DNA of 52,350 nt from Lentisphaerota bacterium. GTDB taxonomy: Bacteria; Verrucomicrobiota; Kiritimatiellia; RFP12; UBA1067. The position numbers and the translations under genes were made by a program. Positions 3,898-39,468 of this stretch are shown piece by piece (position 1 is the first letter of the stretch; every line of letters starts with the position of its first letter). Below the pieces are notes generated by a model that saw nothing but the letters and a program-made list of their open reading frames with translations, was not told where the DNA came from and made no database searches. The DNA is taken from NCBI GenBank assembly GCA_015061665.1, contig SUWC01000013.1, forward strand, positions 1 through 52,350, given 5' to 3'.

Positions 3898-6800
3898 TCA
3901 CAGCGAGCCTTTCACAAAACGGCTTTCGCCGGGAGGGATGACGACGGACGATTCTGTAGTCTGGCAGCGCGTCCAAGGATCGATAACGACAGCTGACTCT
4001 CCGCCGAGATCGACTTTGACCTCATGCTCGGTATCATTCGCGATAAATGCAAGTTTCTCTCCGCTCGGGAGGAGGCGCGAGATGTGCGGCAGATTAAGCC
4101 GACGCGCGGGCGGCATTCCTGCGAGTGTGCGTCCTTCGCTGTCAACGACATAGCCGTAGCGTATTCCCTCAGGAGTCGTCCAGGCTTCCGCCGTCTTCGT
4201 CATCCGCGCGGCGGCATCGCCCGTCGCAAAATCCCAGTCAAGTCCGTCCAGCGCCTTCGGCACTTTGGACGCGATGATCTTGACCGGCACATCGTCACCC
4301 GCGTAGAATAGCGCCTCTGGCGCAGGATCACCCTGGCGCAGCATCCACGAGCAGAAGGCGATATAGTCCCAGAACGGACGCGACCCCTCCCACCACGGAT
4401 TGCTTCTGTTCAGACCGTATTCGCGCGGACCCGTCGGCACCTTCACGCCGCAGTCCTTCTTCGGCAGATGCGGAACGGCGCAGGCCGTCATTGCATTCAC
4501 GCCGAAGGCGAATGCCAGGTCGCAGCGGCGGCGCAGCTCGGGAATGGTCATCTTGTACGGAGCGTCCGTCATCGCCTCCGCGCTCGCGATCTTCTTTCCA
4601 TAGAGATGCGCGGCGCTCGACGTATCCTTCACATCGTACGCGCCATGCTTCTGGTAGCCCCAGAACTCGCCTTCAGGTATTGAGATGTATTTCTTCGAGA
4701 ATACGGAATCCGCAATCATGAACATGCCTCCGCCCGTCTGCGCGGTGAACGACAATCCATCGTCGCAGCAGAGGCGGTCGAATGTTCCGTAGTAGCGCTC
4801 GGCGATCAGTTCCACACACGTCCTGCGGAAATCGGCAAGGACATCCTCCGCGTTCTCAGCGACGCAATAGCCCGCCATCAGCGGAAGATACGGCCTGAGA
4901 TCGTAGCCGCGCCGCCGCGCAAATTCCTCCAGCATGTCGTCCGTCCAGTTCTGCGCACCAGCCTCGTGGCTGTCTAAGATTATGCCGGCGAGCGGAATCC
5001 CTTTCGATTTTAGCCTGTCTATGATGCGCTTCGTATACGACTTCCAGTGCAGTTCCGCCGCCGCGACGCTCATCTTGTCGCATTCAAGCCCCATAGCCTC
5101 GGGACGTCCGTGCTTTGTGCATCCGCCCGTCGGCACAGCGACAAAACGCAGCACCTTCCAACGTCCCGCAGGCAGTTCGCATTTGAGTCTGCGGTCAGAC
5201 TCGTCGAATTTCTCCGTGACGTCGCGAACGTCTTTCATATCGACGCAGACCGGCGTGTCGCCGCGCGAAACGAAATCGACGACCGCCGCCGTCTTCGCCT
5301 GCCAGCGCGGAATCTTCGGAAGTGAATTTGTGACGGCCTTGAGCGTCTTTTCACGATAGCCGTACATTCCGCCCGGATGCTGCATCGTGCTGGCGAGCCC
5401 CTTTTCGTGTCCGGCATACTCCATATCGACGAACATTCCGTCTGCTTCCGGTAGTGGAATCGCGAGCACGGCGACTGTCTTCTGCCAGCCGCGGTCCTTC
5501 GCGACAGGGAGCGAGAGCGTCACCTTGCCGCCGTTCGTGTCGCGGTCGATTACGGCAAGCGTTTTCATGGCGTGCGCTGGATCGATCCACGGGCCGCCCG
5601 CGACATATCCATTGCCCACGGCCGTCTCGAATGTCAGCCCGAGACGCGCCGCCTCGGACGCGGCAAACTCGACGCCATCCCACCATTCGTCGCTCCACAG
5701 CTTTTCCGCGTTCGGGTTCTCTCCGTGATACTGGTCGTAGTACACCACCCCGCCGAAACCGACGCGCTTCATCGCCTCGGCGTCCGCCGTAATCCCCTCA
5801 TGCGTCGTCTCGGTCTGTCCGAAGAACCACCACGCCTTCGGACGGCAGTCGTCGGGGATATGGCCTGCGCGCGGCGCCTCAGACGCCGCGAACGAAGCAG
5901 CCTCGGCGAAAGTGGCGACGCGCACGTCATTCTGCTCTTTTATCCATTGAAGATGTTTGCGCAGCTCATCCGGGTTCTCCCACGCGTCATAGCCACGCGC
6001 GATGCCGTGGATCATAAAGACCAGCCATTCTCCGTTCTTTTTGGCCTTTTCGACCATCTCGTTAATGCGCTCGGCGGTCATCTTGCCGCCCGCCCCCTTC
6101 TGATGCATCCTAAAAAAATGAAGGCCCGCTTCCTTCGCGATTCCGCGGACTTCAACCCCGTCTTCGCCGTTTTTCGCATTGTACGGCGCGGCGAAACTGC
6201 GACATTCAACGCCGGCATTCTCCTTGATGGCGACTTGGTTTTTTCGTATGTCATCAAGGATTGCCGTGCGATTCATTCGTGAATATTTCCCATGCGCCCA
6301 TCCATGACTGGCGATTTCCATGCCGCACTCCGCCATTTCACGGACCTGCGTCCATGTCATTGTCGGCGTGTGGGATTCCGCTTTTGACCGCATCCCGTCC
6401 GGATTGCCGATCTTCGAGCCGATGATGAAGAATGTCGCCTTCAGCCCGGCTTCGCGAAACATCGGATAGGCAAGTTCATATTGGTCGAGAAGTCCGTCGT
6501 CGAACGTATAGGTGACAATGCACTTCGGCGTGGACGCCTTTCGGGAAGGTACCGTTTTTATGAATTCACCTTCGGAAAGTTCCATGACTTCGCAGCCCGG
6601 CAGGCGCAAGGAGGCAGTAGTGCCAGGCGGGACGAGTTCGATATAGTCTATTTCAGGAAGGACTGCGCCGCTGTTCGAAAGACGGATTTCGTTGACTCCT
6701 GGATTCAGCCTCACGCGGGAGACATCGGAATGGACTCCATTGACGGAGATTGAGGGCTTTGCACCGTCGCCAAGAGCTGCTATCGACAGCTCGTACTCTC

Positions 6801-8145
6801 CGCCCTCCTCGCTCCACACGCGGCTGAAGACAATATCATTGCCGCCGCGTCCGCCAGCGCCTGAAACAACCACGCCGCCAGACGCTTCTTTAGACTCCCT
6901 GTAGTAGGCCGTCTTGGCCTCCGCGGCATTGCAGAGTTCCTGGTAGAGCGGCAAATAGGCGGTCTCTGCCTCGTAGCGCCGCTTCTCGCGCCTGTGGCGC
7001 CCCGAAACCTTGCGGACTGCCGCGCCATGCGGGGGGAGCGAAACGGATATCGCATCGCCTTTCGCATCCGCTGGATCAAGATCAAGTTCTTCCATCGTGA
7101 CAGACAGATCCTTCTTTTCGTCGCCGAGGTTGAGGAATAGCACCGCGCGCGTCGTGCCAAACGCTTCGCCGATGTCTCGCGCGAGGACGTATGCTTCGCC
7201 ATCGCGCCTGACGACATTCCCCTGCGGCTCGGCGACATCCTGGTTGAGCGCAATCAGCTCCTTGTCTGCAAGAAGTTCGCGAAGGCGCGCATCGGCCTTC
7301 ACCTTCTCAAGATCGCAGCCGATGAGAAGCGGGGACGACATGAAGCACCACGTTGCGAAGTGCGTGTGGTCTTCGACTTCCGTCATGCCGCGCCCGACCT
7401 CCAGCATGTCCATGTCGTTGTAGTGTCCGCGGCTGGCATATGCGCCGAGATACAAGTTCTGCCTGATGATGTCCTTGACAGAACTCCAGCGCGGACGTAT
7501 ATCGTGGCTGATGCGCCAGCTGTCCGCGAGTTCCGCCGCCCATGTGCCGGGGAAATCCCATCGGCATATGTTCATGCGCACACCGGGCTTCGCGGCGTCG
7601 ATTGCACGACGTATGGCGGTATAGCGCTGGCGTTCGTCAAGCGCCAGCTTGTCGAAATTCTGCCTGGGGTCGCCACCGCAGAAATCCACCTTGATGAAAT
7701 CAAAATCGTGTTCACGGAAATAGTAGTCTGCGTCTTCATCGTCATGAAGGTAGAAGCCGACTCCTATGCCGAATTTGTCCTTGTCCCAGAAACTGCCGCA
7801 CGTGTTCGCGCCGCCGTCCGAGTATATGCCGGCCTTTAGGCCAAGCGAATGTATGCCGTCGACAATCCCCTTGAGTCCGTTCGGAAATCGCTCGGGATGC
7901 GTCTTTAGCCGTCCTGCCGGATCTCGTCCGCCGAAAAAGCCGTCGTCGACATTGACATGGTTGTAGCCGCTGTCCTTCAGTCCCAGTTCCACCAGTAGTC
8001 GCGCCTGCTTCAGAATCAGCTGCTCGTTGATGTTGACGCGATAGGTGTTCCAGCTCGACCACCCCATCAATGGCGGCTGCTCATCCGCCGCGAGCGCAGC
8101 AGCGGCAATTACAACAAGGCATGCGCATGAAAGAATCTTATTCAT
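3898..8145 (-). CDS. GH27 alpha-galactosidase / carbohydrate-binding / CE4 deacetylase / GH106 fusion
   Basis: The protein has 1415 residues and a signal peptide (1-20). Residues about 24-380 are a GH27 domain with the nucleophile Asp154 in IKVDFC, the acid/base Asp215 in WRISHDI, and NDMDML at 243-248. Residues about 390-510 look like a CBM6/35-type beta-sandwich beginning YEAETAY. Residues about 540-755 are a NodB-type polysaccharide deacetylase with TFDDG (547-551) and the metal-binding SHGWAHG (613-619). Residues about 763-1415 are GH106-like, with WWFFGQTETTHEGI, GNGYVAGGPW and DSHEAGAQNWT (Glu1061 a likely catalytic residue). Four modules on one chain suggest concerted removal of alpha-galactose, acyl groups and alpha-rhamnose from one branched glycan. 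It starts 6 nt after a TATAAT box, so it is probably leaderless, and it likely leads an operon with the downstream GH2 fusion. Confidence 0.88.
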   Translation of the reverse strand: MNKILSCACLVVIAAAALAADEQPPLMGWSSWNTYRVNINEQLILKQARLLVELGLKDSGYNHVNVDDGFFGGRDPAGRLKTHPERFPNGLKGIVDGIHSLGLKAGIYSDGGANTCGSFWDKDKFGIGVGFYLHDDEDADYYFREHDFDFIKVDFCGGDPRQNFDKLALDERQRYTAIRRAIDAAKPGVRMNICRWDFPGTWAAELADSWRISHDIRPRWSSVKDIIRQNLYLGAYASRGHYNDMDMLEVGRGMTEVEDHTHFATWCFMSSPLLIGCDLEKVKADARLRELLADKELIALNQDVAEPQGNVVRRDGEAYVLARDIGEAFGTTRAVLFLNLGDEKKDLSVTMEELDLDPADAKGDAISVSLPPHGAAVRKVSGRHRREKRRYEAETAYLPLYQELCNAAEAKTAYYRESKEASGGVVVSGAGGRGGNDIVFSRVWSEEGGEYELSIAALGDGAKPSISVNGVHSDVSRVRLNPGVNEIRLSNSGAVLPEIDYIELVPPGTTASLRLPGCEVMELSEGEFIKTVPSRKASTPKCIVTYTFDDGLLDQYELAYPMFREAGLKATFFIIGSKIGNPDGMRSKAESHTPTMTWTQVREMAECGMEIASHGWAHGKYSRMNRTAILDDIRKNQVAIKENAGVECRSFAAPYNAKNGEDGVEVRGIAKEAGLHFFRMHQKGAGGKMTAERINEMVEKAKKNGEWLVFMIHGIARGYDAWENPDELRKHLQWIKEQNDVRVATFAEAASFAASEAPRAGHIPDDCRPKAWWFFGQTETTHEGITADAEAMKRVGFGGVVYYDQYHGENPNAEKLWSDEWWDGVEFAASEAARLGLTFETAVGNGYVAGGPWIDPAHAMKTLAVIDRDTNGGKVTLSLPVAKDRGWQKTVAVLAIPLPEADGMFVDMEYAGHEKGLASTMQHPGGMYGYREKTLKAVTNSLPKIPRWQAKTAAVVDFVSRGDTPVCVDMKDVRDVTEKFDESDRRLKCELPAGRWKVLRFVAVPTGGCTKHGRPEAMGLECDKMSVAAAELHWKSYTKRIIDRLKSKGIPLAGIILDSHEAGAQNWTDDMLEEFARRRGYDLRPYLPLMAGYCVAENAEDVLADFRRTCVELIAERYYGTFDRLCCDDGLSFTAQTGGGMFMIADSVFSKKYISIPEGEFWGYQKHGAYDVKDTSSAAHLYGKKIASAEAMTDAPYKMTIPELRRRCDLAFAFGVNAMTACAVPHLPKKDCGVKVPTGPREYGLNRSNPWWEGSRPFWDYIAFCSWMLRQGDPAPEALFYAGDDVPVKIIASKVPKALDGLDWDFATGDAAARMTKTAEAWTTPEGIRYGYVVDSEGRTLAGMPPARRLNLPHISRLLPSGEKLAFIANDTEHEVKVDLGGESAVVIDPWTRCQTTESSVVIPPGESRFVKGSL

Positions 8146-8151
8146 GGCTCC

Positions 8152-8194
8152 ATTATACCAAACACTACTTCGTCATTGCATACCCAGTCGGGTA
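8152..8194 (-). promoter_or_regulatory. GH27-fusion promoter with TACCC-N4-GGGTA palindrome
   Basis: On the minus strand TATAAT (8152-8157) lies 6 nt before the ATG. The inverted repeat TACCCAGTCGGGTA (8181-8194) lies 23 nt upstream of that box. If transcription starts at the ATG, the palindrome is centred near -42, the usual site for a class II activator. About 60 bp here resemble the promoter at 13664. Confidence 0.75.
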
Positions 8195-8272
8195 CCATTC
8201 AAGACACACACATCGTGCGCCCGGGCGGCACGGACGACCATCTGATGCTGCTGACGCGCGCTGGACACGGAC

Positions 8273-11200
8273 TCAGAGACGCAGTTCGACAGAACCCGAG
8301 ACGCGGTCTCCAACCAGTCTGACGGGCCGCCCCTGCGGGCCGCCGCGCTCCGCCTTGAACAGCTTGTTGCCTATCGCAGGTATGACATGGTAAACGCCGA
8401 CGCCAAGTTCGTACGGCATTGCGTACAGATAGTTGTCTGGTCCGTCCTTCGGAGAACCGACGCCCATGTAGAGTCCATCGCGCGGAATAAAGCAGATATG
8501 CGACGCGCTCGGAGAACCGACTTCTACATCCATCCACTTCGCCTCGAACCAGCCCTTGAACGGGCGGTCCCACGATACACCCGGCACGGCATCGTTGTAC
8601 TCGTCCTTCCATACGCCCCATTTCGGACCGCGCATCCTGTTGCGCCAGATGCGATCCGGGCCTCTGCCATGCCATTTCTTCCCCAAAATATTCTGACAGG
8701 GGAAGTCGACGCCCAGCACATCAACCGCGTTCGTGCAGGAAATCGTCCAGGCGTATGTCACGCTCGCGTCGGCGTTCGTCGTGACCGTCCACTCGAACGA
8801 CGCTTCGACAGGTTCGTAGCGGCTCCCCTTCGTCTCGCCGACAAGCCGCCAGGCGATGAGACGCGGCTCGGGGATTGTGAACTCGCCGCCGCCGCGACGC
8901 GGCGGCTCGTCTTGCATCACACCGTCTCCCTCGCCCCCAAAAATCGCGCGCACCGTCGCGCAGCTTCCGCCCTCTTCGCCGTTCGGACCGACGAGCCCGT
9001 CCGGCGCGAGGTTACCGCACGCGTCGTATCGTCCGAGATCGTCGCGCCACTGCGCCTCGTCCTTCAGCGCCCAGAGGAAGCCGCCGATGCAGTTCGGATA
9101 GCGCATCATGGTAGTCCAGAAGTCCTCGAGCCCGGCGCCAAGTCCGCCGTCGTAGAGCCCGTGCTGAAATTCCGTCGGCATGAAAAGCTCGCCCGCCTTC
9201 AGCTTCTTCACGAGCCGGTCGTAGTCGGGATAGTGCTTGGTATCGATGCCATCATGGAACGCCCACGGATGAAGCACGGCGCGCTTCTGGAGATCGATCT
9301 CCTTGAACATCGCGTCAAGCTCGGTGTTCCATCCGCCTTCGTTTCCGTTGGACCAGAAGATGACTGACGGATGGTTGTGGTCGCGCTCCAGAAACACCTT
9401 CAAGTATTCTCGTCCGAGTTCCGTCCGGATCGGTTTCTGCCAGCTGCAGAATTCATCTTCAACATAAATTCCGAGTTCGTCGCAGGCATCGAGGAACGCT
9501 TCGTCCGCAGTGAGGTGCGCAATCCTCACCGCGTTCATGCTGAGCGACTTGATGAGCCGGGCGTCCTCGTAGTTCATCTCGCGCGTCAGCGTACGTCCGG
9601 TTCTCGCATTGAACGTCTGGCGATTGACACCTTTTACGACAATCTTCTTCCCGTTGACATACACACCGTCGCGCGGCCTGACTTCGACGGTTCGGAATCC
9701 AAACCGCTTCGTGACGGAATCAACCACATTCCCGTTTTCGTCCTTCAGCTCGAAAACCCGCTCGTAGAGCTTCGGATGGTCGACATCCCACGTCTCGATG
9801 TTCGTCCATTTCTCATCAATCGTCTCCTCTCGACCGTCGCTCGCCCTCACGACCGCATGTAGCGTGCCGTCGGCACGCGCGTCGATGCGCACGCACTCGA
9901 TATGCAGCTTCGGCACTGTGCGGAGCGAAACGGAGCGGAAGATGCCGCCGTAGTTCCAGAAATCGCATCGCCGCTCGCTTCTGTTCACGCTCGCATCTGA
10001 AGATTCCTTGCCGCAGTCGACTTCAAGCGTGTTTTCTCCGCCGTAATTCACGAGGTCGCTGATGTCGAACTCGAACGGAAACCACGCGCTGTGATGCGTC
10101 GGGAAAACCTTGCCGTTCACTTTAACGTTCGCCTCGGTCATCACGCCTTCGAAACGGAGCTTTACGCATCTCCCTCGCCACTCCGACGGGACAGTGAATT
10201 TGCGCAAATAGAGACCATGTTCGTCGGCGGGCTTTTCGTGTCCGTGCCACTTGTCGCCGAACTCGATGTTGTAGCCGTACTGCCACGTTCCGAATCCCTG
10301 CGTCTCCCAGCACGACGGAACCGTGATTGTCGTCTTCTCGCCCGCGCGCCGCCCGCCTGTCACCTCGAAAGACCATTCGCCATCAAGCGAAAGCGTTTCG
10401 CGCATGCCAGCGGACTTCTGCTCGTCTGCGACACGGAGGCGGATTGAAGCGGAGGGAATATTCGGTGCGGAGACGACAAGCTTCGCCTCGCCCTTCGCGC
10501 GCGCCGCGAGCGTCACGACGAGCGCGCCGTGAAACATCGTCATGCGCTGCTCGGTAAACACTTCAAGCGAAGTCGGATCGCCGTTGCAGACGCCCTTGAA
10601 CGCAAGCGCGTCGCCTTCTACCGCAAACGAGAGAGGCAGCGCTGCGTCAGGACAGACCGTGCCGTCCTTGTCTACGACCTCGACCGTCACATACGCAAGG
10701 TCGCGCGTGCCGTCGGATTCCGCAAGCGCGATCGTCTCGCGGTCGGCGGTCAATCTGAGCGCCGCCGGTGCGCCGGCCGTCTTTACGGTTTCCGTCTTTG
10801 TCGTGCCGTCAGGATAGAACGCGACGGTCTTCAGCTCGCCAGGCGCGTACACGACCTTGCGCCAGCGGAGGCGGAAACGGTCCAGGCGCGATGCCGGATT
10901 CTTGCGGATGCGTCCCTGCGACACGCCGTTCACGAAAAGTTCGGCCTCTGGCGCGTCCGTATAGACATAGACGGGCGTGACCTTCCCCTCGCGCCCCGGC
11001 CAAGTCCAGTGAGGCAAAATGTGTAGCGTGCGGACGTCCTTCCTCCAGACGCTTCGGTAGAGCCAGGCGCGATCCTTAGGAATGCCGGCAAGATCGTAGA
11101 TGCCGAAATAGCTCGACCGCGACGGCCAGTAGAGATTGTACGGTGAAGGCTCGCCGAGATAGTCGAAGCCGGTCCACACGAACTGACCGAGCGTCCACGT

Positions 11201-13657
11201 ATAATCCTCCTGCGCCGCGAGGTCGTCGTCCGCAAGATTGCTCCAGTCGATCTCGTCCGTGTCGTAGGATGAGACCTGTCCGTCGTCGTACGGCGAATCG
11301 CGGTATCTTCTCACGTCATCCGGGAAACGGTAGAATCCGCGCGTCGAAATCGCGCTGGACGTCTCCGTGCCCAGAATCGTGCCGTTCCTGGCGAACGGAC
11401 GCGTCGCCTCGTATTCGAAGATATGGTAGTTCGCGCCGGCGATGTCCTGCGCGGCAATGGTGCCGCGCTCTGCGGCACGTAGCGGGCGGTTGTTGCCGAG
11501 CGTGCACGGACGCGACGGATCGAGAGAGTGGATGAAATCCTGCATCTCCTTCACCATCGCCGGACCTTCAGGACAGACGGATTCGGAGATCTCGTTCCCG
11601 ATGGAATACATGACGACGCACGGATGGTCCCGGCACACCTTCACAAGCTGTGCAAGATCTTTTTTCCACCATTCCCTGTACCAGAGATTGTAGCCGTTTT
11701 CGACCTTCCGGCGCTTCCATGCGTCGAAACTCTCCGCCATCACCCATACGCCTTCCTCGTCGCAGATGTCCAGCATTTCCGGATTCGGCTGGTTGTGGGC
11801 CGTGCGAATCGCATTTACTCCGATTTCCTTCAAGAGCCGCAGCTGGCGGCGGAAGGCCGCAGCGTTCCATTCCGCACCGATCGATCCGAGGTCGTGATGC
11901 AGGCAAACGCCTCTGAATTTGACCTTCTCTCCGTCGATGAAAAAGCCATCCGGCGTCGATTCTATCTTCGGCAGACGCTTGCGCCGGTCGGGACGGGCGA
12001 AAACGGCCGCCTCCGGATCGTCCGAATCCAGCACGAGGTAGACGGGACGGAAAAGCCCTGCGCCCGGATACCACCGCGACGACTCCAGACGGTTGTGGAG
12101 GCGGACCTCGAGCGCATACGTACCAGGCGAAACGTCCGGCAAATCGACTTTAAAACTCGTGTAGCCGTGCTTCCACTCGCCGACTTTTGCACCATCCCAG
12201 AACACCTCCGGCTCTGACATCGCACCGCTGAACACAACCGCTGCCCGTTGCGTACCTTGGGAAATCTCGATCTTCCGCCGATACGTGCCGTCGCCGAACC
12301 ACGGCAGCGCGCCGGTGCGCCCCGTCTTTTCGCTCGCTTTCTTCTCGCCATCCTCGGCAATCGCCACAATCTGAATGTCGTTCGTCTTGTCGAACGGGCC
12401 TGAAATCGCCCAGTCGTGCGGGACGCAAACGTTCTTCCACGTTTCTCCGTCGCGCGAAAACTCCCAGCCGGACGAAAGCGGCGCCACGACGGTTGCCCGG
12501 CGCGGCGGAGTTGCCGCGAGAGCCGCGCAGAAGCGGAAGGGTTTGTCGGGATAATCGACGCGTCCGGCGAGGTCGCGAACCTTGACATAGCGCGCGGGAT
12601 CGTCAGGACGGTCCAGAAGCGAATAGCGCGTCGCGGCAGGATCAGTCCAATCGCCGGCAATCAGCTCGTCGCGGCGGAAACGCGTCGGCAGGCCGCTGTC
12701 GTCAAGATCGACGCGGCAAGAGAACGTTTCGCGTCCGAGCGGACATTTCGCACCGCCCTCTGTCATGCGCATTCCGAGAAACACGGCGCACCACTCGCCG
12801 CCGGGCGTCTGCACGAGGTCGGCGTGTCCGAAGGCCTGGAGCGGTGAATTGCGTCCACGGTCTTTGGCGGTCAGGACAGGATTCCCCGCGACATGAGTGT
12901 ACGGCCCTGTCACGCAATCGGAGACAAGGGCGATTTCCATGTGTCCCCATGCGGTTCCGCCCTGCGCATGCAAGAGCAGATACTTTCCGCCGATTTTGTA
13001 AAGGTGGGGACCTTCCGCGAAAGCGGCACCTTCGCCGAATCCGTCGGTAAGGACGTGCCTGTCTCCGAACAGACGCCCGGTTTCGAGGTCTATGCGCTGC
13101 ATCCATATCTGGCAGTGTCCGCGCCACTTCTGCTTTGACGGCTGCTGGTTCGAGAGGTACCACGCATCGTCGCCGTCAAAGAAGAGCGAGCCGTCGATGC
13201 CCGATTTCGCATCAATCTTCATCGGCTTCGACCACGGGCCTGCCGGATCCCTTGCGGTCAACAGGTAGTTCTCGGCCTTTTTGAATCCGTCGTGCCACGT
13301 GACGGTCAGATAGAAAACGCCGTTGTGATGGCGCAGCGTCGGCGCCCAGATGCCGTCGTCCGGCGTTTTGCACGGCCACGGTTCGCGCCATGCGTGGGAT
13401 ATGATTTCCCAGTGCACCATGTCTTTGGAGCGATACACCGGCAGACCGGGCGAAAGCGAAAAACTCGATGTGGCAATATAATATTCGTCACCTACGCGGC
13501 AAATCGTCGGATCGGGGTTCCCGCCGGAAAGAAGCGGAGTCGCGGAATTCTGCGCGGCACCTTCGGCGCGACACAACGCCCCGCCTCCAGCGGCGAAAAA
13601 AACTGTCGCCGCAGCGACAATTACGACAGGATGCACGATTGAGAGAATCATTTTCAT
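8273..13657 (-). CDS. GH43 / GH2 / GH2 triple glycosidase fusion
   Basis: The protein has 1794 residues with an N-terminal secretion signal (about 1-31). Residues about 40-345 are a GH43 five-bladed propeller with Asp49 (NPDP), Asp155 (GIDGS) and Glu215 (AEGPH) as the expected base, pKa modulator and acid. It resembles the xylosidase/arabinofuranosidase branch (YIATSSFSLSPGLPVY). From about 395 a GH2 beta-galactosidase-like enzyme begins without its own signal, with acid/base Glu689 (SIGNE) and nucleophile Glu765 (GTETS). A second GH2 enzyme starts near 1087 (LSLDGEWSF), with Glu1440 (NGNEGG) and Glu1496 (TEFQHG). All three active sites look intact. The GH43 lacks the C-terminal beta-sandwich common in that group. 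Leaderless start with the shared palindromic promoter. The exact sugars cleaved are inferred. Confidence 0.9.
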   Translation of the reverse strand: MKMILSIVHPVVIVAAATVFFAAGGGALCRAEGAAQNSATPLLSGGNPDPTICRVGDEYYIATSSFSLSPGLPVYRSKDMVHWEIISHAWREPWPCKTPDDGIWAPTLRHHNGVFYLTVTWHDGFKKAENYLLTARDPAGPWSKPMKIDAKSGIDGSLFFDGDDAWYLSNQQPSKQKWRGHCQIWMQRIDLETGRLFGDRHVLTDGFGEGAAFAEGPHLYKIGGKYLLLHAQGGTAWGHMEIALVSDCVTGPYTHVAGNPVLTAKDRGRNSPLQAFGHADLVQTPGGEWCAVFLGMRMTEGGAKCPLGRETFSCRVDLDDSGLPTRFRRDELIAGDWTDPAATRYSLLDRPDDPARYVKVRDLAGRVDYPDKPFRFCAALAATPPRRATVVAPLSSGWEFSRDGETWKNVCVPHDWAISGPFDKTNDIQIVAIAEDGEKKASEKTGRTGALPWFGDGTYRRKIEISQGTQRAAVVFSGAMSEPEVFWDGAKVGEWKHGYTSFKVDLPDVSPGTYALEVRLHNRLESSRWYPGAGLFRPVYLVLDSDDPEAAVFARPDRRKRLPKIESTPDGFFIDGEKVKFRGVCLHHDLGSIGAEWNAAAFRRQLRLLKEIGVNAIRTAHNQPNPEMLDICDEEGVWVMAESFDAWKRRKVENGYNLWYREWWKKDLAQLVKVCRDHPCVVMYSIGNEISESVCPEGPAMVKEMQDFIHSLDPSRPCTLGNNRPLRAAERGTIAAQDIAGANYHIFEYEATRPFARNGTILGTETSSAISTRGFYRFPDDVRRYRDSPYDDGQVSSYDTDEIDWSNLADDDLAAQEDYTWTLGQFVWTGFDYLGEPSPYNLYWPSRSSYFGIYDLAGIPKDRAWLYRSVWRKDVRTLHILPHWTWPGREGKVTPVYVYTDAPEAELFVNGVSQGRIRKNPASRLDRFRLRWRKVVYAPGELKTVAFYPDGTTKTETVKTAGAPAALRLTADRETIALAESDGTRDLAYVTVEVVDKDGTVCPDAALPLSFAVEGDALAFKGVCNGDPTSLEVFTEQRMTMFHGALVVTLAARAKGEAKLVVSAPNIPSASIRLRVADEQKSAGMRETLSLDGEWSFEVTGGRRAGEKTTITVPSCWETQGFGTWQYGYNIEFGDKWHGHEKPADEHGLYLRKFTVPSEWRGRCVKLRFEGVMTEANVKVNGKVFPTHHSAWFPFEFDISDLVNYGGENTLEVDCGKESSDASVNRSERRCDFWNYGGIFRSVSLRTVPKLHIECVRIDARADGTLHAVVRASDGREETIDEKWTNIETWDVDHPKLYERVFELKDENGNVVDSVTKRFGFRTVEVRPRDGVYVNGKKIVVKGVNRQTFNARTGRTLTREMNYEDARLIKSLSMNAVRIAHLTADEAFLDACDELGIYVEDEFCSWQKPIRTELGREYLKVFLERDHNHPSVIFWSNGNEGGWNTELDAMFKEIDLQKRAVLHPWAFHDGIDTKHYPDYDRLVKKLKAGELFMPTEFQHGLYDGGLGAGLEDFWTTMMRYPNCIGGFLWALKDEAQWRDDLGRYDACGNLAPDGLVGPNGEEGGSCATVRAIFGGEGDGVMQDEPPRRGGGEFTIPEPRLIAWRLVGETKGSRYEPVEASFEWTVTTNADASVTYAWTISCTNAVDVLGVDFPCQNILGKKWHGRGPDRIWRNRMRGPKWGVWKDEYNDAVPGVSWDRPFKGWFEAKWMDVEVGSPSASHICFIPRDGLYMGVGSPKDGPDNYLYAMPYELGVGVYHVIPAIGNKLFKAERGGPQGRPVRLVGDRVSGSVELRL

Positions 13658-13663
13658 GATTCA

Positions 13664-13706
13664 ATTATACCAAACCCGACTTCGTCATTGCTTACCCTGT
13701 CGGGTA
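13664..13706 (-). promoter_or_regulatory. GH43-GH2-GH2 promoter with TACCC-N4-GGGTA palindrome
   Basis: TATAAT (13664-13669, minus strand) is 6 nt from the ATG, and the palindrome TACCCTGTCGGGTA (13693-13706) is 23 nt further upstream. The element matches the GH27 promoter in both spacings. The surrounding sequence (taccaaac...ttcgtcattgc and tcaagacacaca) is also shared. Confidence 0.75.
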
Positions 13707-13777
13707 CTAATCAAGACACACATTCCCGCCCGGTTCTCCTGCCTTCCGTTTTGACGCTCGCCGTATTCACGTTGGGC

Positions 13778-14215
13778 TCACTTGACCGTCTTGGTGCCGG
13801 TCACGCGCCCCATCGAGTCGCGATAGGTCGTCTTGCCGTACCGGTCGGTGGTGGCGCTGCCCTGAAGCCGCCCCTGCGCGTCGCGCCACGTCGTCTTGCC
13901 GTAGCGGTCGGTCGTCATAGTGCCCTGGGTGCGTCCCATGGCGTCGCGCCACGTCGTCTTGCCGTAGCTGTCGGTGGTCATTGTACCCTGCACGCGGCCC
14001 ATCGCGTCGCGATACGTCGTCTTGCCGTAGTTGTCGGTCGTCTTCGTGCCCTGAAGCCGCCCCATCGAGTCGCGATACGTCGTCTTGCCGTAGCTGTCGG
14101 TCGTCATCGACCCCTGCACACGGCCCTGGGCGTCGCGCCAGACCGTCTTCGTGTCGGCCTGGCAGACAGCCGCCACTGCCGCCGCGAACGCAAATGCAAT
14201 TACGATTTTCTTCAT
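13778..14215 (-). CDS. small secreted protein of 21-residue tandem repeats
   Basis: The protein has 145 residues with a clear signal peptide (MKKIVIAFAFAAAVAAVCQA). The rest is five full copies and one partial copy of a 21-residue unit with the pattern T(Y/W)RD-x2-GR-x-QG-x2-TTD-x-YGKT. The unit is rich in Tyr, Trp, Arg, Thr and Gly and has no Cys after the signal. The pattern recalls YD-type beta-strand repeats but I do not recognise a family. GGGAGG precedes the ATG at normal distance, unlike the leaderless glycosidase genes on either side. It sits between GH43-GH2-GH2 and GH95 in the same orientation, so a role in glycan binding at the cell surface is possible but unproven. Confidence 0.75.
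   Translation of the reverse strand: MKKIVIAFAFAAAVAAVCQADTKTVWRDAQGRVQGSMTTDSYGKTTYRDSMGRLQGTKTTDNYGKTTYRDAMGRVQGTMTTDSYGKTTWRDAMGRTQGTMTTDRYGKTTWRDAQGRLQGSATTDRYGKTTYRDSMGRVTGTKTVK
13795..14150. repeat. 63-bp coding tandem repeat
   Basis: About 5.7 copies of a 63-bp unit encode the 21-residue protein repeat. Corresponding points lie exactly 63 bp apart (for example catcg at 14000 and 14063). Copies differ mostly at a few codons, so the array is old enough to have diverged but its length is still uniform. Confidence 0.85.
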
Positions 14216-14247
14216 TTCAGCCTCCCTTTCATGGTTTTGACGACTAG

Positions 14248-16506
14248 TTAGGGACGCAATCCTTCAGAATCTGACAAGAAAAAACAGCGGCCGTCGGGGT
14301 GGAGAAGCTCGAGTTCATAGCTGTCGCCCTGCCAGGAAAGCTTCTTGACCTTGATTCCGCCCGGGAGGAGAAGTCCCGATATGCTGCCCTTCTTCCATGA
14401 CGCGGGCTTGGCGTTGAGCACCTGGAAACCTCCGTCGGGGCCCTTCGTGATGAGCGCGTCGGCGATGATTCCGGGGAAGCCGCCGGATATGTCGATGTTG
14501 AAGAGCCAGCCCGGATCGTGCAGCGTGCCGAGCGCGTCGGTGAAGTACGTCTCCTGCAGAAGCTTGATCGCGCGCTCCATCACCGCCGCGTCGCCGACCT
14601 TCGCCGCAGCGTAGCCGATCTGCGTCACGCCGAACGCCATGTGGTTCTCCTTCTCGTGGAACGTCATGCGTGCGTCGAGCGTTTTCTTTATCGCCGCGAC
14701 GAAGACCGCGTTCGTGAGAATCTCCGCCGGCGCCTCGTCGTAGAGCGCGTAGACGTGAGAGACGTGCCGGTGGGAGTTGTTGTCCGGCGTGCCGGGAATA
14801 AGCCACTCCGCCCAGAAGCCGTCCTTCGAGACCGCGTACTTCGGCAAGCGCGCGCGCTTCTGCGCCCATTCGCGGACGCTCGCCTCGTCGCGCCCCAGAA
14901 TCTTCGCAGCCTTCGTCGCATAGTCAATGGACTGCTTGGCGACGGAGATGTCCATCGTCGGATTGTTCATGGTCGAGTACCCGCCCTTCGGGAGATCGGG
15001 ATTCATGACATCGCCCTGCGAGCGGAAGTCTCCGTGCGGAGCGTTCTCCGGCGAATAGCCAGGCGCGAAGCCGAGCGTGCCGTCCGGCATTTCCTCCATG
15101 CAGTCGCAGATGTAGTCCGCCGCATCCTTCAAAAGCGGATAGACCTTCTTCAAGACTTCGATGTCCTGAGTCGCCTCGTACCAGCGCCAGAGATAGCCCG
15201 TCATCCACCCCGCGCCGCCGTGCCACCACATCAGCTCGACGTTGCGGTAGTAGGCCGTCTCGAGTCCGGTCGTTGTGACCTGCCCCGGAATGTGGATTCC
15301 ACGCGCGTTGTAGCCCTTCTTCGCCGCCTCCTTGAAGTCCTCGTAATAGCGCATGATCCACTCGTAGAGCGATTCGTTGAACTCCGGCGTGTTGCCGCGC
15401 GTCCAGAAGCTCATCGCGCACGGCATGTTTCCGTCGACGGTGTAGCTTCCGTTGTACGGAGCGGACCAGCTTCCGGCCCAAAGTCCCTGCAGATTCGGCA
15501 GAACGCCGTCCGGACCAGTCGACGAAATGATGTTGTAGCGTCCGGCATGGAACTTGCGCACCAGATCGCGGTCTGGGAGATCGAGCGCGACGCGCCCCAT
15601 CAGCTCCTTCATCACCGGCGCGTGGCGCTCGAGAAGCCGCGCGTATCCCGTGTCCGCCGCGGCGGAAAGCTCGCGCTTCGCCGTCTCGAACATGGAGTCG
15701 GTTCCGAACGGCAGCGGATAGATTTTCACGAACACCTCGTCGCCCCTGCGGAGTCCGACAGCCTCGTATCCGTGGAACGGATTCTTCCCGTTCTCCTTGC
15801 GGAAATCGACGCGGTAGTACATGTAGCCGTCCTTCTCGCGGATGCGCTGTATCGCCGCATCGCCGCTGGGGCGTCCGTTGGAGATCGTTTCGAAACCGAC
15901 TGTGAACGGACGCCTCTTCGCGTCCTTGACCCGCATCGCGATCACGCCGTCCGTGCGCGAGGCGAATATCCTGCGCTCGTAGTCGTCGGTTCGTACGGTG
16001 CATTCGCCGCGCTCGAAGTCCGTCATGCGGCGATAGCCCGGCGCATCGCTCCACTTCGGCAGGTCCGGCGTGTCGACGACAAGGCTGACCGCGCCCATGA
16101 ACGGATCGCGCTTGAACGAATAGCCGCTTTCGTCCGACGCCTTCTGGATGACTTCGCCCCAGATTTCCTTTTCGCGTCCGGCGAGCGCCAGTTCGCGCGC
16201 CTTGTCGCGGTACTTCCCGAGCTCGAAATATCTTCCGTTCATGACGCGCGGGAGAAACAGCCGCGCGTGCGAGAGGAATATCTCCTCGTGCGCAAGTTCG
16301 CCCGGAACCATCGCGCCCATCGCGCCGTTGCCCGTCAAAAGCGACTGCTCCCATGCGCGGCTCTTGGGGACGCCCGGCCTCGCCTGCGCCGGCGTCTCGC
16401 ACACGACGCCAAGCCGAGGCGCGCGGAACTCGTCCGCAAACGCTGGGACGGAGACGAAAACCGCGGCAATCGCGGAGAGGCACAGACGGCAAAGTTTGAT
16501 TTTCAT
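14248..16506 (-). CDS. GH95 alpha-L-fucosidase-like enzyme
   Basis: The protein has 752 residues and a signal peptide (about 1-25). The order of motifs fits GH95: LLTGNGAMGAMV near 57, NLQGLWAGSW at 338, SPEN with the likely acid Glu487, HRHVSHVYALY at 579, and FNIDISGGF with the likely activating Asp672. In characterised GH95 enzymes a NIN triplet helps activate water. The aligned triplet here is DGN (358-360), so the first Asn appears to be Asp. That may change linkage or sugar preference (alpha-L-fucose versus alpha-L-galactose). It has the same palindromic, leaderless promoter as the GH27 and GH43 fusions, so all three are likely induced together. Expected to work outside the cytoplasm. 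Confidence 0.85.
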   Translation of the reverse strand: MKIKLCRLCLSAIAAVFVSVPAFADEFRAPRLGVVCETPAQARPGVPKSRAWEQSLLTGNGAMGAMVPGELAHEEIFLSHARLFLPRVMNGRYFELGKYRDKARELALAGREKEIWGEVIQKASDESGYSFKRDPFMGAVSLVVDTPDLPKWSDAPGYRRMTDFERGECTVRTDDYERRIFASRTDGVIAMRVKDAKRRPFTVGFETISNGRPSGDAAIQRIREKDGYMYYRVDFRKENGKNPFHGYEAVGLRRGDEVFVKIYPLPFGTDSMFETAKRELSAAADTGYARLLERHAPVMKELMGRVALDLPDRDLVRKFHAGRYNIISSTGPDGVLPNLQGLWAGSWSAPYNGSYTVDGNMPCAMSFWTRGNTPEFNESLYEWIMRYYEDFKEAAKKGYNARGIHIPGQVTTTGLETAYYRNVELMWWHGGAGWMTGYLWRWYEATQDIEVLKKVYPLLKDAADYICDCMEEMPDGTLGFAPGYSPENAPHGDFRSQGDVMNPDLPKGGYSTMNNPTMDISVAKQSIDYATKAAKILGRDEASVREWAQKRARLPKYAVSKDGFWAEWLIPGTPDNNSHRHVSHVYALYDEAPAEILTNAVFVAAIKKTLDARMTFHEKENHMAFGVTQIGYAAAKVGDAAVMERAIKLLQETYFTDALGTLHDPGWLFNIDISGGFPGIIADALITKGPDGGFQVLNAKPASWKKGSISGLLLPGGIKVKKLSWQGDSYELELLHPDGRCFFLSDSEGLRP

Positions 16507-16512
16507 GCCGCT

Positions 16513-16555
16513 ATTCTACCAAACCCCGCCCCCGCGGTAAATACCCAGTCGGGTA
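16513..16555 (-). promoter_or_regulatory. GH95 promoter with TACCC-N4-GGGTA palindrome
   Basis: TAGAAT (16513-16518, minus strand) lies 6 nt from the ATG and the palindrome TACCCAGTCGGGTA (16542-16555) lies 23 nt upstream. Spacings are identical to the other two sites, although the intervening 23 nt (GC-rich here) are not conserved. That argues for selection on the palindrome and its position rather than simple duplication. Confidence 0.75.
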
Positions 16556-17136: not shown

Positions 17137-20100
17137 CTACTTAGCCGCCTCAACGCGAAGAGTCCGCGCACCGTTTCCATCGCTCTTCACGAAGACCGCA
17201 AACTCGGAGGGACGGAACTCGCTGTCGGTCGACACGGATTCATAGTCGAACACGCCGCGCAGATCCGTGTACCCGTCCTTGTGGAACTTCACCTGACGGC
17301 CGCTTGCGTCCCGCGAATAGACCTTGACGTACGCGCCTGGGAGAGCGCGTCCCTTCGCGTCGCGAACGCGGAGCTGACGGCATTCGCGCACGACCTGGAC
17401 GTCTATCGCGCCAGGAAGTATCTCAAGCCGCTCTTCGGCGCGACCATCCGCGCCCGTCGCGACTACGACGAGGTTGGACTCACGCATGGCCTTCGGAAGC
17501 TCGACGCGCGTACCGCCTTCGCCAAGCAGCCTTATATTCGACTCCCATGCGGGCCTGAGGCTCGACACTGCGCCGAACCCTCCCTTTCCAGATCCAAAGG
17601 GATTCTTCGAAAACGCAATCTCTATGTCGACCGGATATGCCTTCACGACGCACGTCTCGAGGTTGCGCGAGAAAAGCACAACACCGTCAGTCGCTCCATC
17701 CATCGCGTCGGCCCTCATAGAAAGCGAGGGCGCGGCGGAAGCCAAGCCGGAGACGACCTGCTCGTCGCGCCCTGCTATTTCGTCAGCCTGCGCAATGACG
17801 TCCGCAAACCTCTCGCGCCATATCTTCGACGGCGCGTCGGCATGCATTGCCGCAATCGCGCGAGCGCCTTCGGGGTCGCCATGCGAGAAGGCTATATAGG
17901 CGTTCATGTAGTCCAGCTGCATCTGCGTCTCCACGTCGCTCGGCGAGACGGACGCGACGAGCGCCTCGGCCTCGGCAATGCGGTCTTGCGTAAAGAGGTA
18001 AACAGCAGCAAGAAGCTTGTCCTTTGCGGAGGGCGACGGCTTGCCGGCAAGCATATCCAGAAACGCGCGGTACTGCGCCGCAAGCGACTCGTTCGGTATC
18101 GCGGCCGACCCGCCCTTCGCATGCGTCATCGCGTTGACTACGGGCCAGTATTCCCTGTGCTCGAAAAGCGAAGTCTCCTCCGGCTCGATGTCGACGATGG
18201 ACGTCTTGAGACACGGACCGAGATTCTTTGCGAGTTTTTCGAGATTCTGCTTCAGCGACGCCACCTGCCTGATTCTGCGAACGTCGAACGAGTCGCGCCA
18301 GTTCAGTCCGCAGAGCCATAGCGGCTCGCAGTAGACCGTGCGCGATTCAAGGACGCCAAGAACCTTGCGCGCAAAGTCGCCGTCCTTCATGCGCCATCCG
18401 GCGCGCGTCAGGTCGACGCCGTTCAGGTTCCTGCCGCGGAGGAACTCCAGCACCTCGCCCTTTGTCCCCCTCTGGGACACATAGCTCCAGCTTGCCTTGT
18501 CGACATTCGTCTGCTTCGGGACGACGCAGCACGTAAATTCCCTGCCCTTTCCTACCGCTGCATCCTGCTCTATCACGCACGCCGGTGAAAGCGCACCGGA
18601 GGCCTTGTCCGCAATCGGGAAATAGAATTCCTGCCGCAGCGCAACGGAGGACTCATACGGCCCCAGCACAAACGACTTGTCCTCCGCGCCGCCTGACTTT
18701 CCGATCGGAAATGCGCCCGACGGGAGTCGCGATACGACGCGAAGCCACCTTTTGCGCGAAGTTGGATTGATGACGATCGTGTCGAGTCCGTAGATCTTGC
18801 CGCCGACGAACTCGTCCTTCACTTCCAAGTTGTTGCCGTTTACATCCAGTTCGACTGCATCGACAAAATGCTGGACAACCTGGACCGCATCGGATTCACC
18901 TGCTTCACGCGTCGGCTTGCCCCTCGTGAACACTACCGACGCCGATTCCGATTCCCTGAACCCGACCTGCATCACGGCGAGAGCAGCAAGCATTTCCGTC
19001 AGCGAAGAAGTCGCAAAGACAATCTCGGGCGAACGGAATTCACCTTCCGTCCCCTCGGAAACGGCCGCGGCATAATCGCGCCAGAAAGTATTCGGCCCGA
19101 CAAGGCCAGCTGCTTCGCCAGCTGTGCGGCACATGTAGTAATATGTCTCGACCCACTCCCTTGTCCGCTCCGGCGGACGCCAGAACTGCCTGTTCTGTCG
19201 GCGCTGGATTTCCGCCGACCTGCGCGCAGCACCGCCGCGAACTGCCGCGCCTATGGACCGAGGCGTCCTGGAGCCGACCATCGACTTCATCCTGACAGGA
19301 GAGCTTACAAGGGTATCTGCTCTGGTCAGGGCGAAGCCTGCCGGACGCATCGAACCACAGTCGTCGAAATCAACCGCAACCTCAATATCTTCAGGGCATG
19401 GCGCTTCCGCAGCGCACAGAACGGCTGCCTCCGGAGTATCGTCCGCCTCGCCGATTGCTATCGCCTTGAGCCTGTCGCTTTCACGCGGATCGACGGGGTT
19501 TGAATCGCACCAGTCGGCAAGTTCCTTTGCAACAGACGGGGCAATCGACCTGACGCTGCGCGCAAGAAGGCATTTCTCAAGCGTGTTCAGGCTCTGAAGT
19601 TCGCCAGGCTCGGCATAGCGCGTTAGATCGTCGCCAATCAGCCAGTGGTCCAGAAAATCCTTGCTGCGTTTGTTGCGGAGGTTCGGCGCTACGACTGCGT
19701 CGAAAAACGCGCGGTCTTTTTCGTGGAGAAAGAGATCCATTTCATGCGAAGCGTATTTTCCGTACAGCTCCCGCTTCTGCGCCTCGCCGATTTCGTTCCA
19801 TCGCGCGAGAAACGCGAATTCCTGAAACGCTGCATGGTTGTTGCCGTCAACGGACATCAGGAGTGCGCAGAGTTCACCAAGAGTCGACATCTTCCTCGTT
19901 CTTCCGGACATTGCCAGCGCGTCGACGCCAGGATTGACGCGAAGGTCGCGCGGAGCAATCGGCGCGCACGGCCCTGCGAGCTTCACCTCGTCAATCAATG
20001 CGCCGTCCGTCGCAATGACATCGAAGTCCTGCATTCCGGCCGCGGACGCAACGTCGAGCTTCACGACGCCCTTGCCGTTTGGCCTCAGGTTCGCGAACAC

Positions 20101-37483: not shown

Positions 37484-38086
37484 TCAGGCCCGGAGTATGC
37501 CAAGCTCATAGGCGCGCGATACCGCCGCGGGCGCGTTCGTGCTGTCGAGTTTCCTGAGGATGCTCTTCATGTGCGTGCGCACCGTCTCGGCGCTGATGTC
37601 GTGGATTATGCCGATTTCCTCGTGCGTCTTCCCCTGTGCGACGTATTTCAGGATATCCATCTCGCGGGCACTTAGCGGCCCCGGCTTCGCCTCGTCGAAA
37701 TCGTCGGAGAGGAACTCCCCTCCATCAGCCGCGAGCCTGATCGCCGAGACAAGCCTCTCCCAGTCGATGCTCTTGGGCAGATATCCGCGCGCGCCCGCCT
37801 CCCTCGCGCGCTCCTCCTCGGCCTTCAGCGGCATTCCGGCGAGCATCAGGACGCGAATGTCCGGGACGAAGCGCTTCATCTTTTCCAGTGTTTCGAATCC
37901 ATCCATGCCAGGCATCCGTATGTCGCTTATGACGATCGATGGCGCGCCTTTGTGCTTAATGTATTCGACGGCCTCAGCACCGCTCTGCGCGGCGCAGACG
38001 ACCTTGAAGTCGCTTTCGTTTTCGAGCATCGCGGCCATTCCTTCGCGCACCACAGGATGGTCGTCTATAATCAATATCTTTGTCAT
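37484..38086 (-). CDS. NarL/FixJ-type response regulator
   Basis: 200 residues from the ATG at 38086 (MTKILIIDDH), chosen because the receiver domain starts there and the ATG overlaps the kinase stop (ATGA). The receiver has the acidic pair Asp8-Asp9, the phospho-acceptor Asp55 in ISDIRMPG, and a Lys near 105. A LuxR-type helix-turn-helix (LSAREMDILKYVAQGKTHEEI and AETVRTHMKSILRKL) completes it. It pairs with the adjacent kinase. Targets are unknown; candidates include the palindromic glycosidase promoters, but NarL-type sites usually look different. Confidence 0.93.
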   Translation of the reverse strand: MTKILIIDDHPVVREGMAAMLENESDFKVVCAAQSGAEAVEYIKHKGAPSIVISDIRMPGMDGFETLEKMKRFVPDIRVLMLAGMPLKAEEERAREAGARGYLPKSIDWERLVSAIRLAADGGEFLSDDFDEAKPGPLSAREMDILKYVAQGKTHEEIGIIHDISAETVRTHMKSILRKLDSTNAPAAVSRAYELGILRA

Positions 38087-39468
38087 AATGGTATCCTTGC
38101 CGTAACAGTCGTTCCTTCGCCTGGACGGCTCGTCACCGAAAGCGTGCCGCCCAGTCCCTCCGCGTGCTGACGCATCGACATCAGCCCTAGATGTCCGCTC
38201 TTCGGCGGCGTGCTGGAGTCGAAGCCGCATCCGTCGTCCTTAACACCGAAGACGAGCGCCGTCTCCGTGAAGTCGACCACTACGTCTACGCGCTTCGCGC
38301 CACCGTGGCGCAAGGCGTTTCCGACGGCCTCCTGGAGGATGAGGAGAAGCGAGCCGGAGCATTTGCGCGCAACGGACCTCTCGCGCCCTCGTACCGTGAA
38401 ATGGACCTTTCCCGCCCACTGCGGCAGCCTGCTGGCGGCGTATTTGAAGAGTTCCGAGAGCGCGGCGGGGCCTTCCGCCTCCTCTGTGAGTCCCCAAAGC
38501 GCGGAGCGGAGCGAGGACTGCGTGTGGTTGAGCGAGTTGCGCAGGAGCTCAAGCTGCGCGCGCGCCGCATCGTCGTCTTTCCCAATCTTTCCCATCGCCG
38601 CGCCGAGGCGGAACATGCAGCCTGCCAATAGCTGCTGGAAGTTGTCATGGAGCTCGCTCGTGAGCCTTAGGCGCTCGCGACGAGCGGCGTCCGCGGCGAT
38701 TTTGTCGCGCTCCCTCGCGCGCATTGCGAGCGCGACGAACCCAAGCATGACTAGCGCGAACACGGTGCACGCGGCGAATATCTTCGTCGGCGTCCAAAAC
38801 GGCGCCACGTCAAGCACCTGGAGGTCCGACAGCTTCTCCGGCATGACACAGAAGTTAGACAGCCTGGCGACGACTACTGATCCCTCGTTTCTGACCGTAT
38901 CGTAGTGCCCTACGCCCTTTACGCGCACAAGCGCGCCGATCTCGAGTCCGCTCGGGAGCGGATCGGACCATCCGATGGGAAGCGGAATCTGCACGGCCCT
39001 GCGCTTTGGCCCAATGAGCAGCTGCGTGAAGGTCTCGCGCCGGTTGATGTCCGACACCTCGCCATGCACCGCCACAAGCCTTGCGAACCAGTCGCGCCGT
39101 CCCTCCTCGCCGTCTTCGCCGACGGCGTACATCTCCTCTACGCTCATCTCGACCGGCTCAGGAACGACGCCCGTCCCCTTCTTCTCGACCAGGGCGCGGT
39201 CGATCTGCGGACGCGCCGACCACTTGGGCCGGATGCCCGACACACGGACTCTATCCCCCGCGCCGACGCGGAGCTTTCCATCCGCGCTCTTCACGCGCCA
39301 GGCCGCGCCCGAGTCGTCGACAATAAAGCTGTGCACATCGCCTGGGCGATGCCAGACAACGACGCCCTCCGCCGAGACGGGGACGTCGTTTGTCAAACAC
39401 ATGACTTCGCCGCGGGAAAGAGCCGCGACGAAGACCATTGCAATACAGATGGAGGTTTTAGCCGTCAT
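38083..39468 (-). CDS. NarX-type sensor histidine kinase with OB-like sensor domain
   Basis: The protein has 461 residues. A signal-like N-terminus is followed by an extracytoplasmic domain (about 25-225) that is beta-rich with two OB-fold-like stretches: GVVVWHRPGDVHSFIVDD...RVRVSGI, and VAVHGEVSDINRRETFTQLLI...ALVRVKGVG. A membrane segment spans about 229-249. The HisKA_3 domain carries the phospho-His274 in LTSELHDNFQQ. The HATPase has NALRHGG and KDDGCGFD. It phosphorylates the adjacent NarL-type regulator. The sensor domain is not a common PAS or Cache type and its ligand is unknown. A -10 box ends 6 nt before the ATG, suggesting a leaderless mRNA. Confidence 0.9.
   Translation of the reverse strand: MTAKTSICIAMVFVAALSRGEVMCLTNDVPVSAEGVVVWHRPGDVHSFIVDDSGAAWRVKSADGKLRVGAGDRVRVSGIRPKWSARPQIDRALVEKKGTGVVPEPVEMSVEEMYAVGEDGEEGRRDWFARLVAVHGEVSDINRRETFTQLLIGPKRRAVQIPLPIGWSDPLPSGLEIGALVRVKGVGHYDTVRNEGSVVVARLSNFCVMPEKLSDLQVLDVAPFWTPTKIFAACTVFALVMLGFVALAMRARERDKIAADAARRERLRLTSELHDNFQQLLAGCMFRLGAAMGKIGKDDDAARAQLELLRNSLNHTQSSLRSALWGLTEEAEGPAALSELFKYAASRLPQWAGKVHFTVRGRERSVARKCSGSLLLILQEAVGNALRHGGAKRVDVVVDFTETALVFGVKDDGCGFDSSTPPKSGHLGLMSMRQHAEGLGGTLSVTSRPGEGTTVTARIPL

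Follow-up and report, generated by a model that had tools for sequence, protein, structure and literature searches.

A fixed-spacing TACCC-N4-GGGTA palindrome at glycosidase promoters of a gut Kiritimatiellae bacterium and a candidate NarL-type regulator

The window (the whole 52,350-nt stretch of DNA analysed) harbours on its minus strand three genes for secreted glycosidases, each of which follows the same arrangement of palindrome, 23 nt, a −10 box (TATAAT, TATAAT and TAGAAT, respectively), six nucleotides and ATG (Table 1). Exactly three copies of TACCC-N4-GGGTA were found, at 8181, 13693 and 16542, where dinucleotide shuffles predict 0.01, and allowing one mismatch added no further copy in the window; both the exact geometry and the lack of a fourth copy had been reported by the first-pass annotation and were reproduced here. 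That annotation had also called the spacer of the GH95 copy unrelated to the others, which is overstated, as TTTGn beside the −10 box is common to nearly all sites. Further along the same strand, a 2106-aa open reading frame (17137-23457) has no Pfam match.

Table 1. Palindromes, −10 boxes and associated genes in the window.
Feature	Coordinates	Strand	Remark
Secreted fusion of GH27-like melibiase, polysaccharide deacetylase (CE4-type) and GH106 rhamnosidase	3898..8145	-	
−10 box TATAAT, extended (TTTGG before)	8152..8157	-	23 nt from palindrome, 6 nt from ATG
Palindrome TACCCGACTGGGTA, candidate binding site of a response regulator, GH27-CE4-GH106 gene	8181..8194	-	
Secreted GH43-GH2-GH2 fusion	8273..13657	-	
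−10 box TATAAT, extended	13664..13669	-	23 nt from palindrome, 6 nt from ATG
Palindrome TACCCGACAGGGTA, candidate binding site of a response regulator, GH43-GH2-GH2 gene	13693..13706	-	
Secreted GH95 glycosidase	14248..16506	-	
−10 box TAGAAT, extended	16513..16518	-	23 nt from palindrome, 6 nt from ATG
Palindrome TACCCGACTGGGTA, candidate binding site of a response regulator, GH95 gene	16542..16555	-	
NarL/GerE response regulator of paralogous system, clade differs from A1	37484..38230	-	
HisKA_3 sensor kinase of paralogous NarL-type system, probably not the TACCC reader	38083..39468	-	

The source genome (3.44 Mb in 177 contigs) was searched for exact copies of the palindrome, with the reversed pattern as control. 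A total of 14 copies were found against 1 for the control, and when TANNAT was required at a distance of 21-25 nt, 11 of the 14 remained, all of them at 22-24 nt, while the control fell to 0; the copies are thus placed by promoters rather than at random, as had been proposed from the window. A twelfth promoter copy precedes a GH10 xylanase gene, with TAAAGT at 24 nt followed by N6-ATG. The other two were rejected, one (on contig C143) as a chance match within a tRNA-Ser and one as a degenerate tandem copy that has no −10 box. The ‘small regulon' of the first-pass annotation therefore comes to about 12 promoters in this genome. Copies with one mismatch were considered as weaker members and discarded, for their number (48, the 14 exact ones included) was at the level of the control (64), which indicates that the ten arm bases are strict. 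On contig C174 two near-identical TACCC promoter regions lie 1.3 kb apart (L054:7860-9167), one of them with a degraded −10 box, which suggests a recent duplication. Among congeners, the hits in G002, which fall in tandem palindromic repeats, and in G013, at 21 nt, were put aside as repeats or chance; the G002 repeat array (L071:5699-5806) consists of TACCCCnnGGGGTA palindromes, five in tandem at intervals of about 23 bp, and lacks a fitting promoter geometry.

The genes that follow these promoters in the source genome mostly encode secreted carbohydrate-active enzymes. They comprise the GH27/CE4/GH106 and GH43-GH2-GH2 fusions and GH95 of the window, GH2, GH10, GH28, a two-domain GH43, GH35 and a GDSL esterase, plus three giant secreted or autotransporter-like proteins. 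In the relatives, which are uncultured Kiritimatiellae of the ruminant (cow and goat) gut, the targets include a GH78 fusion, GH35, orthologues of GH95 and GH2, GH115 and a rhamnogalacturonan lyase (RGL11), together with RhaT, KDPG aldolase and a PfkB kinase. The theme shared by these targets is the use of pectin and hemicellulose. In G020, a palindrome was also found at a gene of the mannitol-dehydrogenase family, where no −10 box was recognised. In G011, a gene for an ECF sigma factor is divergent from a TACCC-driven GH35 gene (L061:4285-4812).

To describe the promoters, the 18 sites with 23-nt spacing were compared. TG one base before the −10 box was present in 17 of the 18, with the consensus TTTGn-TATAAT, and no −35 element was detectable in them (best match to TTGACA, 2.83, versus 2.67 in shuffled spacers). 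Counted from a transcription start at the ATG, the palindrome would cover −49 to −36, with its centre at −42.5; given this predicted start, both the spacing of the site and the missing −35 element fit class-II activation from an extended −10 promoter. Since the palindrome lies upstream of the −10 box, its reading as an RNA hairpin or terminator was rejected.

Leaderless transcription of the regulon genes is plausible from the TATAAT-N6-ATG geometry. Among open reading frames generally, as sampled at loci of the source genome, 6 and 7 nt are the commonest distances between −10 box and ATG (21 and 11 cases; other distances, 5 or fewer), so that leaderless transcription, if it occurs, would be a trait of the organism and not of the regulon. 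Leaderlessness was accordingly dropped as a mark of the regulon: TANAAT-N6/7-ATG is a genome-wide habit, and several members have leaders of 25-240 nt. A literature search on leaderless promoters in the phylum returned nothing usable.

Repressors often bind palindromes near promoters, and the palindrome could in principle be a repressor operator instead of an activator site. Repression is also known for regulators of the NarL type, as NarL represses at frdA (PMC4549865). However, the predicted centre near −42.5, the helical-phase precision of the spacing (mostly 23 nt), the missing −35 element and the extended −10 box together make up an activator-dependent anatomy, and at the activated promoters napF and yeaR the 7-2-7 sites of NarL are at −40 to −49 and −38 to −47 (PMC4549865); repression is therefore very unlikely. 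The fixed spacing, the promoter anatomy, the coherent targets and the recurrence of the arrangement in related species support the earlier proposal that these glycosidase genes are co-regulated through an activator site near −42.

The arms themselves recall a known site. The binding sites of Escherichia coli NarL are inverted heptamers, and TACCC arms are also present in its engineered 7-2-7 site TACCCCTAAAGGGGTA; NarL and the sites described here have in common inverted TACCC half-sites, a GerE-type response regulator (here a candidate one) and a position around −42 of activated promoters (here a predicted one) (PMC4549865). In contrast, the heptamers of NarL, 2 bp apart, yield TACCC-N6-GGGTA where all sites here have N4, the NarL targets serve nitrate respiration rather than plant-polysaccharide use, and the promoters here, unlike those of NarL, carry an extended −10 box and no −35 element. 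With arms and predicted position matching and the spacer differing, the palindrome would be a NarL-type, class-II-like site but not a NarL site. The 5-bp arms and N4 spacing are those of the GC-rich palindrome of Staphylococcus NreC, also a NarL-type regulator, whose arms however are TAGGG/CCCTA and which acts in nitrate/oxygen control; searching the literature on the NreC palindrome yielded nothing usable.

The source genome encodes 22 HisKA_3 kinases and 24 GerE regulators. A first lead to the regulator came from G014, where a TACCC palindrome precedes a HisKA_3 kinase and a NarL-type regulator (L065), and in a tree of 100 regulators one group, A, was often found on contigs with TACCC sites. 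Its sub-clade A1, defined as response regulators at least 60% identical to the one on contig C73 of the source genome, was profiled in 35 congeners. Six of these congeners have 23-nt TACCC promoters, and five of the six carry A1, namely G000 (with two copies), G008, G009, G011 and G020, while no other congener has it; the sixth, G019, has one 23-nt site, and A1 was not detected in this genome, which is 85% complete. These genomes are related, so the co-occurrence counts are not independent.

A1 is also linked to the palindrome by operon structure. Its genes in the source genome lie on C73 and C154, and on C73 palindrome, GH28 gene, kinase gene and regulator gene form one tight run. In UBA7008 (L243), the palindrome directly heads the kinase-A1 operon, and in G009 it heads a fragment at a contig end whose product is 80% identical to the UBA7008 kinase. 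In G020 (L164), L108 and L214, the promoter of the kinase gene in the A1 system has no perfect TACCC palindrome. Response_reg and GerE domains scored above cut-off in the regulators of L049, L243 and L108, and HisKA_3 was present in the adjoining kinases of L049 and L243. D8, D9, D55, T83 and K105 (among them the acidic pair, the phospho-Asp and the Lys) are invariant in the alignment of A1 receivers, and the nearest solved structures are VraR and NarL.

When genomes were instead picked for an A1-like regulator (L241, L242 and L243; 68-72%), all three were positive, with 4, 4 and 10 rows of TACCC promoters (control, 0), though the 4 rows of L242 count one site twice, and L242 may be the species of G020, which leaves the independence of this check uncertain. 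Conversely, three of four genomes that lack A1 were without TACCC promoters. The exception was RUG12088 (G063, L247), with six rows, at 24-25 nt except for one overlapping reading; in G014 likewise, TACCC promoters are at 25 nt and A1 is absent, the L065 regulator belonging to another clade. Their simplest reading is that a second regulator reads the TACCC word at a slightly longer spacing, and TACCC can then be used by a regulator other than A1. We infer from these sequence relations that A1 is a good, as yet unproven, candidate for the regulator of the TACCC set.

The regulator had been stated not to be in the window, which is probably right for A1, yet a paralogous HisKA_3/NarL pair at 37484-39468 had been missed. 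That this pair reads the palindrome is suggested by its family and by the three palindromes on the same contig. It belongs to a clade other than A1, however, neither its own promoter nor the one upstream has a TACCC palindrome, and the nearest relatives of its regulator among those sampled are only 44-53% identical; the pair was rejected as the TACCC reader, a role that is highly improbable for it. A gene for a secreted PATR-repeat protein precedes the pair, whose own word may be CCGC-N4-GGGG, an imperfect palindrome at the promoter of the kinase gene.

Other words were found in the same layout. At two-component loci, the two best −10 offsets had 8 and 7 perfect 5-N4-5 palindromes other than TACCC versus about 1 at other offsets, an enrichment that is partly selected because the choice of words had started from these very loci; palindromes with an odd spacer or with none (N0) were not enriched at that position. 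The words at this position were CCCCC, CCCCT, CCCTC, CCTAC, TACAC, TAGCC, TGTAG and TGCAC. Several directly precede the kinase genes of their systems: CCCCC does so at two loci that are orthologous, TAGCC at a pair of loci whose recognition helices are identical, and TACTC in A2, the sister clade of A1. Whole-genome searches for CCTAC returned 17 sites in G030, 8 in G008 and 7 in G011, and those for TAGCC, TACAC and TACTC smaller regulon-like sets, with controls of 0-1 per genome throughout; the genes downstream nearly always start with an apparent signal peptide. CCTAC-N4-GTAGG (L190, L225, G030 and C76 of G011), mostly at 25 nt, makes up the largest other set, and those of its G030 sites that were examined are before secreted proteins. 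Sister two-component systems thus appear to use the TACCC layout with other palindromic words, the apparent pairing of word and regulator resting on gene neighbourhood.

These loci also bear on a rival reading, in which the reader of the palindrome is a one-component regulator from a different family (LacI, AraC, GntR or CRP-like) and the link with A1 a phylogenetic coincidence. Sugar genes are often under such regulators, the class-II position would suit CRP-like activators too, and in G009 (L057) a regulator with Peripla_BP_3 and an AraC-type HTH is divergent beside the palindrome of the PfkB gene. Yet recurrence beside the palindromes was found for HisKA_3/NarL pairs and not for one-component regulators, palindromes of the same layout with other words precede other HisKA_3/NarL operons, and the TACCC arm matches the NarL half-site; a one-component reader consequently seems unlikely, the genus-wide profile having covered response regulators.

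We therefore favour, as the probable reading, a regulon for plant polysaccharides in which the palindrome serves as operator and is read by the HisKA_3/A1 system through class-II activation. The sites, their fixed spacing, the promoter anatomy, the targets and the co-occurrence and operon linkage of A1 are computed observations, and the predicted course from signal through binding and activation (rather than repression) to transcription start would be as follows. A HisKA_3 sensor kinase would detect a signal occurring together with glycans of the pectin or hemicellulose type and phosphorylate the NarL/FixJ-type response regulator of clade A1, a dimer of which would bind TACCC-N4-GGGTA, centred at about −42.5. 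The bound regulator would then recruit RNA polymerase to promoters with the extended −10 box (TTTGn-TATAAT) and no −35 element, and the transcripts may often begin at the ATG.

In Pontiella agarivorans, of the same phylum (Kiritimatiellota), PF07730 kinases and response regulators lie beside glycoside hydrolase genes, and the parts of that report consulted describe no operator, promoter anatomy or regulon for them (PMC10880615). For Desulfovibrio vulgaris, response-regulator motifs are mostly inverted repeats of 4-6 bp spaced by 3-8 bp, the same motif can serve several paralogues, and autoregulation occurs; that work is experimental, concerns largely sigma-54-dependent regulators and has no sister words at one fixed promoter position (PMC3333781). 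Our literature search found no study on the regulation of plant-fibre degradation in uncultured Kiritimatiellae.

The regulon is real and its promoter architecture well supported, and the apparent set of sister words is the most interesting part. On balance, we lean towards the view that in this genus of gut Kiritimatiellae NarL-type systems have expanded, to 22-26 per genome at most, on a common chassis (a 5-N4-5 palindrome, 22-26 nt, an extended −10 box and often a leaderless start) on which sister systems are told apart by the 5-bp word alone (TACCC, TACTC, TAGCC, TACAC, CCTAC, CCCCC and others), forming an operator alphabet that can be read from sequence. The strict promoter signature can be searched for in genomes and provides a list of the regulon and a named candidate regulator. 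The operator alphabet, if true, would show which substrate genes belong to which sensor. The wider word set, if real, would supply, from nature, a series of paralogous regulators with matching operators, all of one geometry, which would help to trace how the DNA specificity of NarL-type regulators changes and would allow glycan sensors to be assigned to enzymes from metagenome sequence alone.
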